From positions 1-20,354 of the IMG/VR virus record IMGVR_UViG_3300047393_000055: DNA of 20,354 bases. The stretch is one strand, 5' to 3'. Shown piece by piece: positions 9,938 to 12,649 of this stretch; positions within the stretch are counted from its first letter, which is position 1, and the number at the start of each line of letters is the position of its first letter. Source of the DNA: a virus. A program made the position numbers and the translations under genes. The notes beneath the pieces are model-generated. The model made no database searches. It had not been told where the DNA came from and was given only the letters and a program-made list of their open reading frames with translations.

Positions 9938-10373
9938 AAAAGTAGGTAGAAAGTATGTTGAGATTCAGCCCTCAATACCATTGAATCAAGAAATTGTATT
10001 AAGTTGTGCTTTTAGATATGCTTTGGGTAGAGCTACGTATGTAGTAGGCTCTGTTTGTGAAGAGCTTATTCGTCTAGAACCGTTGCTTGACAAAAACTTT
10101 AAGTATCGTACCGCTAAAGAAATCCAAGAATACCAAGATGAACATGGAAAAGCCGGTTGGGATTTTGATAATGATGAATGGAATTACGTAAAGTGGCTGT
10201 TTACTCCCGAAAGAAGAGTTATGGTTGAAGCTAATTACTATCAATCCGATAAGTGGGTAGATGTAGAAGCCGTAAGAAGTGACGATTTAGATGATGATGG
10301 GAATGTTAAATATCTTTCTTTAGTAAGTAAAGATAGGTATTATTTTAAAGTGAGAAATATAAGACAAAAATAA
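9921..10373 (+). CDS. Hypothetical phage protein
   Basis: About 150 residues. From the GTG at 9921 the protein starts VEKTYKKVGRKYVEIQPS (Val read as Met), then SCAFRYALGRATYVVGSVCEELIRLEPLL, a helix-rich segment. An 'ALGR.TYVV' stretch recurs in phage proteins of this size, with no function I can name. The C-terminal third is acidic and beta-like. A TTG at 9894 is an alternative start that would overlap the previous gene by 44 bases. The stop overlaps the RNase HI start (TAATGG). Confidence 0.68.
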   Translation: MEKTYKKVGRKYVEIQPSIPLNQEIVLSCAFRYALGRATYVVGSVCEELIRLEPLLDKNFKYRTAKEIQEYQDEHGKAGWDFDNDEWNYVKWLFTPERRVMVEANYYQSDKWVDVEAVRSDDLDDDGNVKYLSLVSKDRYYFKVRNIRQK

Positions 10374-10744
10374 TGGAAAAACCAAATTCAGGGATAGCGG
10401 TAGATGGGGCCTGCTCAGGTAATCCTGGGCCAGCAGAGTATAAAATTGTAGATATTGCTACTGGCAAGACTTTGGTTGAGCGTAGTATAGGTATTGGTAC
10501 AAATAACCACGCTGAGTTTATAGGATTGTGTCATGCAATATATCTTTACCCAAATAAAACTATCTATTGTGATAGTGTTACAGCAATGTGTTGGGTTAAA
10601 AAGAAGTCTGTAAACTCTAAACATCCCCACCCAGAAATACAAAGGTGTATAGATATGTTAAAAAGTATCACTAAAATACCAAGACTTGTTAAGTGGGATA
10701 CTAAATTGCATGGTGAAATCCCTGCTGATTTTAATAGAAAATAA
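10373..10744 (+). CDS. rnhA: Ribonuclease HI
   Basis: Cleaves the RNA strand of RNA-DNA hybrids, here presumably removing primers made by the primase encoded downstream. The catalytic set is complete in a 123-residue protein: D11 in AVDGACSGNPG, E48 in NNHAEFIGL, D67 in YCDS and D119 in EIPADFNRK. The short length and the 'GEIPADF.RK' ending resemble RNase HI domains of phage and Bacteroidota. It closes the small-gene cluster and is followed by an independent promoter. Confidence 0.92.
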   Translation: MEKPNSGIAVDGACSGNPGPAEYKIVDIATGKTLVERSIGIGTNNHAEFIGLCHAIYLYPNKTIYCDSVTAMCWVKKKSVNSKHPHPEIQRCIDMLKSITKIPRLVKWDTKLHGEIPADFNRK

Positions 10745-10758
10745 TAAAGTTTAACAAG

Positions 10759-10790
10759 TTTGTATATTTAATATAAAGGTTGTATCTTTG
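10759..10790 (+). promoter_or_regulatory. Bacteroidota-type promoter P4
   Basis: TTTG at 10759-10762, a 20-nt spacer, then TATCTTTG at 10783-10790: a perfect match to the -33 and -7 consensus. Transcription should begin a few bases later, at or very near 10794, the first base of the hairpin described next. Confidence 0.88.
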
Positions 10791-10793
10791 CAA

Positions 10794-10891
10794 AGTATTA
10801 TGGTCTGAAACCTAAAGATAATACTGTAAAATATTTGCCTTTTGAATGATGTGTTGCTTCAGACCCAACACAGATTTTGGAAGGCTTTTTT
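10794..10891 (+). ncRNA. Putative structured ~98-nt RNA with complementary hairpin loops
   Basis: Two hairpins lie between promoter P4 and a T-run. Hairpin 1 pairs AGTATTAT (10794-10801) with ATAATACT (10818-10825) around a 16-nt loop; an inner GGT/ACC pairing is optional. Hairpin 2 pairs 10837-10856 with 10866-10885 (17 of 20 positions paired, three G-U, one 3x3 internal loop) around a 9-nt loop. GGTCTGAA (10802-10809) in loop 1 is the exact complement of TTCAGACC (10858-10865) in loop 2, so the loops could kiss. Own promoter, start at the first stem and intrinsic terminator together suggest a discrete RNA. It could equally be a leader attenuator for the genes that follow. Confidence 0.62.
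10837..10891 (+). terminator. Rho-independent terminator ending the structured RNA
   Basis: The long stem 10837-10856/10866-10885 with a GCC/GGC base is followed directly by TTTTTT and then ATTTT. It stands between P4 and the GIY-YIG gene, so the downstream genes would need read-through or anti-termination. Confidence 0.85.
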
Positions 10892-10903
10892 ATTTTAAAT
10901 AGT

Positions 10904-11590
10904 ATGGAAAAGATTTGTGGAATTTACAAAATAACTTCTCCTAGTGGGAGAGTTTATATAGGAGAAAGTAAAGACATTTTTAAAAGGGTGTATTATTACA
11001 AGATACTTAGTTGTAAAAGTCAAAATAAGCTTTATAGCTCCCTAAAGAAACATGGTTGGGATTCTCATATCTTTGAAATTATAGAAGAATGTGAGTTTGA
11101 AGAGTTACTCTGTAGAGAACGGTATTGGCAGGATTTTTATGATGTGCTAAATGAAGGTTTGAATTGTAAATTGACTGAATGTGGGCAAATAAAACAAGTT
11201 CATTCTGAAGATACATTACAGAAATTAAGAATACCTAAACCTCAATTAAGAGGGGAGAATCATCATAACTGGGGTAAAGAATTAAGTAATGAGACTAAAG
11301 CTAAACTGAGATATTCTGCAAAAGAACGTTATAAAAATAATCCAGAGCTAACTTTGAATATAAGTAAGATGAGAAGTGGAAAAGGTCATAGACAATACGG
11401 TATCCCTATAAGTAATCATCAAAAAGATGCTATAAAAAGAAAAAATTCCAAGATAGTTCTTTGCATAGATACAGGTATATTTTATTGCAGTGCTTTAGAG
11501 GCATCTGTGGTTTTTGGTATAAAATACTCAACTCTTAGAAGTATGCTAAATGGGAGTTGTAAAAATAAAACAAATTTAATTTATTGCTAA
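10904..11590 (+). CDS. GIY-YIG homing endonuclease with NUMOD3/NUMOD1-like regions
   Basis: A 228-residue selfish endonuclease of the free-standing type. The GIY-YIG domain is complete: G6-I7-Y8, Y18-I19-G20, R28 and the catalytic Glu E72 in CRERYW. A NUMOD3-like DNA-binding region follows (about 105-155: RGENHHNWGKELSNETKAKL), and the end (about 185-228: DTGIFYCSALEASVVFGIKYS) resembles NUMOD1. An upstream in-frame TTG at 10877 lies within the terminator hairpin, so ATG 10904 is preferred. It lies between RNase HI and the primase, and its stop overlaps the primase start (TAATG). It probably spreads by cutting phages that lack it. Confidence 0.9.
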   Translation: MEKICGIYKITSPSGRVYIGESKDIFKRVYYYKILSCKSQNKLYSSLKKHGWDSHIFEIIEECEFEELLCRERYWQDFYDVLNEGLNCKLTECGQIKQVHSEDTLQKLRIPKPQLRGENHHNWGKELSNETKAKLRYSAKERYKNNPELTLNISKMRSGKGHRQYGIPISNHQKDAIKRKNSKIVLCIDTGIFYCSALEASVVFGIKYSTLRSMLNGSCKNKTNLIYC

Positions 11591-12498
11591 TGTCACATTA
11601 TAAAGATATAAAATTTCAATATTACCCCTGTCAAATTAGTGTACCAACTCCATTGGGGGAAGTTACTTTTGAGCAGTTTATAAAAGCCAACAAAAATCCT
11701 AAAGGAGAGATTATAACTCTTTTTGAACAAATTTCTGCTGCCAGTGCTGCTGGGGATATGGAATTAAAAGCTAAGCTAAAGTCAAAGTTATACTATTTTA
11801 CTCCTTGTGTTAATACAGATGGGTTAGGTAGAAGTTATTCAAACATAACAAGTTTTACGTCTTTTATGACTCTTGATTTTGATAAACTACCAGATGCACC
11901 GGCTTTTAAGCATTTTTTGTTTGGTGCTGTGCCTAGTATTGTAGCTGCATACCTATCACCATCAAAATTAGGTTGTAAATTCATTGTTAAAATTCCTGTA
12001 TGTAAAACTACAGAGGAATTTAAAAGTTACTTTTATGGTATGGGTAATTACTTAGAAAAGTATGAAGGATTTGACCCCTCTACTCAGAACTGTATTTTAC
12101 CCCTATACCTTTCGATTGACCCCGACTTATTATACCGTGAAAATGCAGAGACTTGGACTGAAAGAGGTTATAAGCTTGATGAGTTCAAGGTATTTACTGG
12201 AGAGATTGAAGTTTTAGAAAACATATCTGATAAGGATAAGAGTAGGGTAAAGACTATTTTAACTAGGTCTATGGAAAAGATTGTAGATTCTGGCCACTTT
12301 ATTGTTAGGTCTACAGCACTTTGTGCCGGGGGTTATGTTGCCAGTGGCTATTACACTCAAGAAGAGATAGAGGAGATACTTTATTCTTTGATTGCGGATA
12401 ACGATTACTGTAAGAAAAATTTACGTGGGTATAAACAAACTGCAAAAGAGATGATAATCAGGGGTATGAAAAGCCCATTATACTTAAAAAATGACTAA
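11590..12498 (+). CDS. DNA primase, BT4734/VirE N-terminal (AEP-like) type
   Basis: A 302-residue protein with the signature of the BT4734-like/VirE-N domain seen in Bacteroidota mobile DNA and phages, related to archaeo-eukaryotic primases. FMTLDFDKL (D96, D98) would bind the metal ions, and YLSPSKLGCKFIVKIP (121-136) is the conserved 'SPSg.GlK' strand-turn with the Lys. Residues about 220-300 form a helical C-terminal part (TAKEMIIRGMKSPLYL) similar to PriCT-like tails. It would make primers for the polymerase. A TTG at 11584 is the alternative start. No own promoter with correct spacing is seen, so it depends on transcription through the upstream terminator or the GIY-YIG gene. Confidence 0.82.
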   Translation: MSHYKDIKFQYYPCQISVPTPLGEVTFEQFIKANKNPKGEIITLFEQISAASAAGDMELKAKLKSKLYYFTPCVNTDGLGRSYSNITSFTSFMTLDFDKLPDAPAFKHFLFGAVPSIVAAYLSPSKLGCKFIVKIPVCKTTEEFKSYFYGMGNYLEKYEGFDPSTQNCILPLYLSIDPDLLYRENAETWTERGYKLDEFKVFTGEIEVLENISDKDKSRVKTILTRSMEKIVDSGHFIVRSTALCAGGYVASGYYTQEEIEEILYSLIADNDYCKKNLRGYKQTAKEMIIRGMKSPLYLKND

Positions 12499-12649
12499 AA
12501 AAGATTTTTATCGTAAAGATTATTTAACGTATAAGAAAAAGTATAAACTTTTCTGTAAAAATGAGCCAGCAAATTTAATTTGTTTGGTAAAACCGAATAT
12601 AAGTAGTACTTTTGCAAATAGAATTTTAATTAGTGAAATTAAAAAATAA
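12491..12649 (+). CDS. Possible 52-aa basic ORF between primase and phosphoesterase
   Basis: ATG at 12491 overlaps the end of the primase gene by 8 bases and opens a 53-codon frame to TAA at 12647-12649. The first 25 residues are strongly basic and Tyr-rich (MTKKDFYRKDYLTYKKKYK); the rest is ordinary. The overlap is like that of true neighbours. Against it, the second half runs across promoter P5 and no motif is seen, so it may be a chance frame. Confidence 0.35.
   Translation: MTKKDFYRKDYLTYKKKYKLFCKNEPANLICLVKPNISSTFANRILISEIKK
12583..12614 (+). promoter_or_regulatory. Bacteroidota-type promoter P5
   Basis: TTTG at 12583-12586, a 20-nt spacer, then TACTTTTG at 12607-12614: full consensus at both elements. 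It leads to the phosphoesterase gene at 12653 with a leader of about 30 nt. Confidence 0.87.

Follow-up and report, generated by a model that had tools for sequence, protein, structure and literature searches.

What does the short RNA unit between an RNase HI gene and a homing endonuclease gene do for the phage that carries it, and where else does it occur? The window, a virus record of 20,354 bases, comes from a relative of the crAss-like phages, its DNA polymerase being 80-85% identical to those of several metagenomic phages and ~39% identical to that of Cellulophaga phage phi38:1. Directly 5' of the endonuclease gene lies an RNA of ~98 nt made of two hairpins, P1 and P2, with mutually matching loops (Table 1). 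A sequence-only reading had described a promoter with 20-nt spacing, an 8-bp hairpin, a 17-bp terminator and two complementary octamers, and all of these coordinates agree to the base. We give a probability of about one half to the unit being a 5' leader, placed between promoter and start codon, that would attenuate transcription through its kissing loops.

Table 1. The RNA unit and its flanking genes in the window
Feature	Position	Strand	Details
RNase HI, upstream neighbour	10373..10744	+	
Promoter, Bacteroidota-type	10759..10790	+	TTTG 10759-10762, spacer of exactly 20 nt, TATCTTTG 10783-10790; from sequence
Hairpin P1, at the inferred transcript start	10794..10825	+	8-bp stem, arms AGTATTAT 10794-10801 and ATAATACT 10818-10825; 16-nt loop; from sequence and fold
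Segment A, loop 1	10802..10809	+	GGTCTGAA; from sequence
Hairpin P2, terminator-like	10837..10885	+	basal stem of 10 bp, 10837-10846/10876-10885; apical stem of 7 bp, 10850-10856/10866-10872; 17 bp in total; 9-nt loop
Segment A', loop 2	10858..10865	+	TTCAGACC; perfect complement of A, 8 bp; duplex ~-10.9 kcal/mol
Terminator U-run	10886..10891	+	six T in the DNA; from sequence
GIY-YIG/NUMOD3 homing endonuclease, free-standing	10904..11590	+	apparently one inserted cassette with the RNA; region missing in L002 and L017
BT4734-like primase, downstream neighbour	11590..12498	+	

The match between the loops had been judged unlikely by chance, and 58 of 200,000 loop shuffles reach 8 nt; the fold as a whole is also more stable than shuffled sequences (z = -3.1). 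The ATG of the endonuclease stands 19 nt past the end of the P2 stem and thus outside the hairpin. The same form of promoter, TTTG-N20-TATCTTTG, is found 5' of protein genes elsewhere in this phage (+ strand, 1813, 3784, 7424 and 12584) and before genes of its relatives. None of this form was found at 10790-12584, in line with the earlier remark that the endonuclease and primase genes have no promoter of their own. Nor was a known RNA family recognised, as the sequence-only reading had it: an Rfam 15 scan of the window gave no RNA-family match at the gathering score, a scan of 10700-10950 gave none even at E<=1, and 25 related loci returned tRNAs only.

Searches of phages and viral contigs for exact and near DNA matches to the RNA gave nothing useful, two pattern matches (L044, L045) being due to chance, and blastn and nhmmer found no copy in close crAss-like relatives. 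In two relatives (L002 and L017), just 12 nt separate the homologues of RNase HI (~73% identical) and of the primase (~71%), and both the RNA and the endonuclease are missing there. The closest relative of the RNA, L070, has loops identical to those of the window; three of the eight P1 pairs and one pair in each terminator stem are compensated, and the apical stem has lost its basal pair. This unit precedes a related endonuclease at another site, between a homologue of the protein encoded at 1951-2553 of the window and a helicase-like ATPase. Since L002 and L017 lack both RNA and endonuclease and L070 carries both elsewhere, the two appear to travel as one cassette. An RNA belonging to RNase HI is rejected, as L002 and L017 have that gene without the RNA and the copy behind RNase HI in L003 is unrelated in sequence. 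That copy (L003 6385-6480) directly follows an RNase HI homologue 72% identical to that of the window, on a contig with an integrase and with no gene close downstream. Relative to L002 and L017, positions 10745-11589 of the window, from RNase HI to primase, are an insertion, and L008 and L015 also lack RNase HI; the region looks like an insertion hot spot.

Beyond what the sequence-only reading could see, the unit is one of a recurring class: unrelated phages have it, and replication genes can also follow it. We scanned 81 loci with homologous homing endonucleases for a 5' segment that is complementary to the loop of a terminator near the start codon. Such units stood directly before the endonuclease at 19 loci, whereas dinucleotide shuffles predicted 0.25; L042 and L103 among the 19 are doubtful by eye, and four units that the strict scan overlooked are visible by eye (L070, L088, L089 and L095). 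The majority of endonuclease homologues have no unit, and the design is also found away from endonucleases. Isolated phages carry it as well (B40-8, FCL-2, FL-1 with two, 11b, phi10:1 and RAP44): a scan for promoter plus unit in 505 kb of 11 isolated Bacteroidota phages gave eight matches at a score of at least 16, compared with 0.4 in shuffles, and the same scan of 320 kb of Bacteroidota host chromosome gave only near-background matches and one at a contig end. The unit of B40-8, which infects B. fragilis HSP40, lies at ~28400-28500, and that of FCL-2, which infects F. columnare B185, at 37490-37590. In a catalogue of 42 units, which is biased because the detector requires exact complementarity, P1 mostly starts 1-7 nt past the -7 element, most RNAs measure 75-115 nt, and in most cases 10-20 nt separate the end of the U-run from the ATG, leaving no room for a second promoter. 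Two unrelated promoter motifs, TAnnTTTG and TATTTATA-like, occur, each directly 5' of P1. In three large metagenomic phage records (G398, G400 and G401), the place of the promoter is taken by the promoter-like motif CTATTTATATTAA, and all units found precede a gene resembling an endonuclease (GIY-YIG, HNH or similar); of ten proteins scanned, two had no Pfam match. These records and G399 (loci L207-L219) have several endonuclease genes per phage, each after the CTATTTATATTAA motif and a unit of type A or B (see below), and many endonucleases without a unit have a similar TATTTATA motif directly 5' of the ATG. Ancylomarina (L153 1526-1619) carries AAAAAGTGCACAATAC, a 16-nt inverted repeat close to a terminator-like site; the promoter seen with the phage units is missing there.

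Units that do not precede endonucleases mostly stand before replication-initiation genes or antirepressors. Behind them are replication initiators (L067 and FCL-2 gp54), primosomal or replisome-organizer proteins (L096 and L065), a primase-polymerase/helicase (L088), a BT4734/PriCT primase (L116) and antirepressor-type regulators (B40-8 gp26 and, in RAP44, a gene just before an antirepressor); these plausibly need tight control. In Riemerella phages (L165 30390-30580, minus strand, L168 and L169), the first codons of the downstream gene repeat segment A, as TTAAACCATC or TTAATCCAAG, and the repeat changes together with the loop pair, so that A' could also pair with the start of that gene. As a general antisense to the downstream start codon A' fails: its complementarity to the gene start is near random except in RAP44-type phages (12 nt) and, weakly, in L039 and L136 (8 nt).

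Compensatory change gives strong support to the loop-loop contact; the sequence-only reading had proposed to look for such change in the stems and in the loop-loop pair of relatives, and it was found. Two backbone families, types A and B, could be aligned, with 18 sequences in all, of which eight were seeds picked by eye and ten were found by nhmmer on backbone similarity alone, free of the detector's bias. All ten of the latter keep perfectly complementary 7-nt loops (7/7 pairs); homologues that keep the promoter and lose the complementarity, which had been named as the outcome that would tell against the fold, were not seen among them. Across both subfamilies, all 119 kissing cells are Watson-Crick, the backbone being conserved while the loop pairs vary with compensation. 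In type B, both partners have changed in all seven kissing pairs, and pairing is 100% over 25 pairs in eight sequences; in type A, both partners have changed in five of seven. None of 500 shuffles matches the observed share of paired cells, the both-side changes or the covariation score in either type, and in type A the observed value for further pair types is reached by 30 of 500. L203, a type A copy whose loops are complementary too, differs in register and was omitted from the count for that reason. The loop pair likewise changes together in the Riemerella phages RAP44, GRAP2 and CRP5, and BF766P1 is a counter-example with an A.C mismatch at one of seven kissing pairs. Types A and B had no match in isolated phages. 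The kissing columns (alignments A8 and A9) hold no G-U pair in the 119 cells, and the changes may arise in one step, for example by template switching between inverted repeats.

Loops also vary more than the linker, with mean pairwise differences of 0.42 versus 0.26 in type B and 0.31 versus 0.15 in type A, and units within one genome all have different loop pairs (eight in G401). This suggests an address-like specificity of the loops, although a permutation test of within-genome uniqueness, with few labels, is not significant for type A (P ~0.37) and is uninformative for type B.

Attenuation is the most likely role because the placement leaves the downstream gene dependent on readthrough of the terminator. 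RNA polymerase would start at the promoter just 5' of P1, which would fold at the 5' end of the transcript and expose segment A. Some 30-60 nt later the terminator hairpin P2 would fold and present A' in its loop, after which P1 and P2 would pair loop to loop over 7-11 bp. The majority of transcripts would stop at the U-run as a short, compact RNA of ~75-115 nt, and the downstream gene would be expressed from readthrough only. The kissing helix would alter termination or readthrough by its shape, by kinetics or as a binding site, the level being set by a signal such as genome dosage, via the accumulated short RNA, or a phage protein reading the kissing shape. For the window, this would mean restrained expression of the mobile endonuclease and, partly, of the primase behind it. 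As in leader attenuators in the wide sense, a terminator does separate the promoter from the start codon, and no second promoter intervenes. The classical switch between alternative hairpins is excluded: in the window, as in both aligned subfamilies, A' belongs to the loop of the terminator and takes no part in its stem, so that the kissing helix and the stem share no bases and do not compete. A leader peptide was also rejected, as many leaders, read by eye, have no ATG.

The replication-gene targets and the variety of loops recall plasmid antisense attenuators and incompatibility, and suggest feedback by the short RNA itself. It is conceivable, albeit doubtful, that the terminated leader is its own antisense RNA, free copies pairing in trans with nascent P1 loops and resetting termination. 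Replication and endonuclease genes would then be under dosage feedback as phage genomes multiply, and each unit of a genome would need its own loop pair, much as plasmid incompatibility groups do. Such a mechanism would explain why loops are more variable than the linker without losing their perfect complementarity, with eight different pairs in one 102-kb phage.

The rival explanations differ in how far they account for these observations. Promoters and terminators are common in intergenic DNA, and an ordinary pair of them might show complementarity by accident, but the loop complementarity of the window unit is not due to chance: the compensatory changes refute this, and the 81-locus scan, the isolated phages and the ten backbone-found copies agree. 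The DNA itself might matter, with A and A' forming an inverted repeat bound by the endonuclease, as I-TevI represses its own promoter via an operator resembling its homing site (PMC2988022). The lack of G-U pairs is what a DNA palindrome would give, but we consider this very improbable, since the stems around both loops are conserved and compensated, replication genes are preceded by units as well, and one loop sequence, CTGGTCC, is common to an HNH enzyme (G398) and GIY-YIG-type enzymes (G399 and G401).

The sequence-only reading had left open whether the RNA stands alone or attenuates the genes behind it. A stand-alone small RNA would act in trans, for example by one loop pairing with other transcripts, and the downstream gene would be a mere neighbour. 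The compact, terminated form with its own promoter would suit this, as would the Riemerella match to the gene start, kept through sequence change, and two copies (L003 and L066) with no gene close behind keep the idea alive. The attenuator nevertheless fits better, given the short distance from U-run to ATG and the missing room for a promoter; the very regular spacing to the start codon, the different loop pair of each unit in a genome and the near-random complementarity to most gene starts make a purely stand-alone RNA unlikely. We hold it similarly unlikely that the unit is a 5'-UTR element for mRNA stability or translation, in which the leader would shield the 5' end, P2 would terminate little and ribosomes would enter at the U/A-rich stretch 5' of the ATG. 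Shine-Dalgarno sites are often absent from Bacteroidota genes, and P1 does sit at the extreme 5' end. Leader hairpins also control T4 endonucleases (PMC2988022). Against such an element, the stem, like that of an intrinsic terminator, passes directly into a U-run of ~5-8 that has A-run partners, and the ATG lies outside the hairpin.

Several known systems share part of this design. The replication genes of plasmids pT181 and pIP501 are controlled by antisense transcription attenuators, in which the exact loop sequence gives specificity. As here, a leader with a terminator lies between promoter and replication gene and a loop-loop contact is made. In the plasmids, however, the leader pairs with an antisense RNA made separately, and pairing decides between mutually exclusive hairpins; in the phage unit one RNA provides both partners, the second being the loop of its terminator. 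No pT181-type counter-transcribed RNA is indicated at the window unit, a search of the minus strand near 10800 for Bacteroidota-type promoters, the only type scanned, having found none. Put RNA of phage HK022 affects transcription termination through two hairpins located directly 3' of an early phage promoter, but it suppresses downstream terminators and contains none, and we know of no loop complementarity in it. Divergence of the RNAI and RNAII loops of ColE1 is linked to compatibility. These 7-nt loops are fully complementary and diverge by compensatory change (PMC9458437), as do the phage loops, but they belong to two different RNAs whereas both loops here lie in one predicted transcript, and no replication primer is involved. 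Engineered forms of the pT181/pIP501 type are reported (PMC3753616, PMC4878617). In T4, RNA structure likewise limits the expression of phage endonucleases, I-TevI, mobE and segB having leader hairpins or terminators and mobE and segF weak internal terminators; those hairpins hide the ribosome site and are bypassed by a late promoter, whereas here two hairpins kiss and the start codon is free (PMC2988022). The position of the ATG, 10904, beyond the P2 stem end at 10885 rules out a hairpin of that sequestering type.

Leader attenuators and kissing loops as such are already known. No published description of the unit was found in the literature searched, with subscription literature largely outside that search. 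To our knowledge, a self-complementary form with varying yet complementary loops across unrelated phages has not been described, and the unit probably represents a so far undescribed type of RNA-based gene switch.

If this is right, the units would form a widespread and so far undescribed class of phage RNA switches that can be told by their architecture but not by their sequence, which is why sequence-based RNA searches would miss them. RNA engineering would gain naturally occurring sets of orthogonal kissing-loop attenuators, and units are at hand in isolated phages with culturable hosts (B40-8, FCL-2, 11b and phi10:1). The class would also show how free-standing homing endonucleases stay quiet inside operons, and would tie their regulation to the control of replication initiation in phages.
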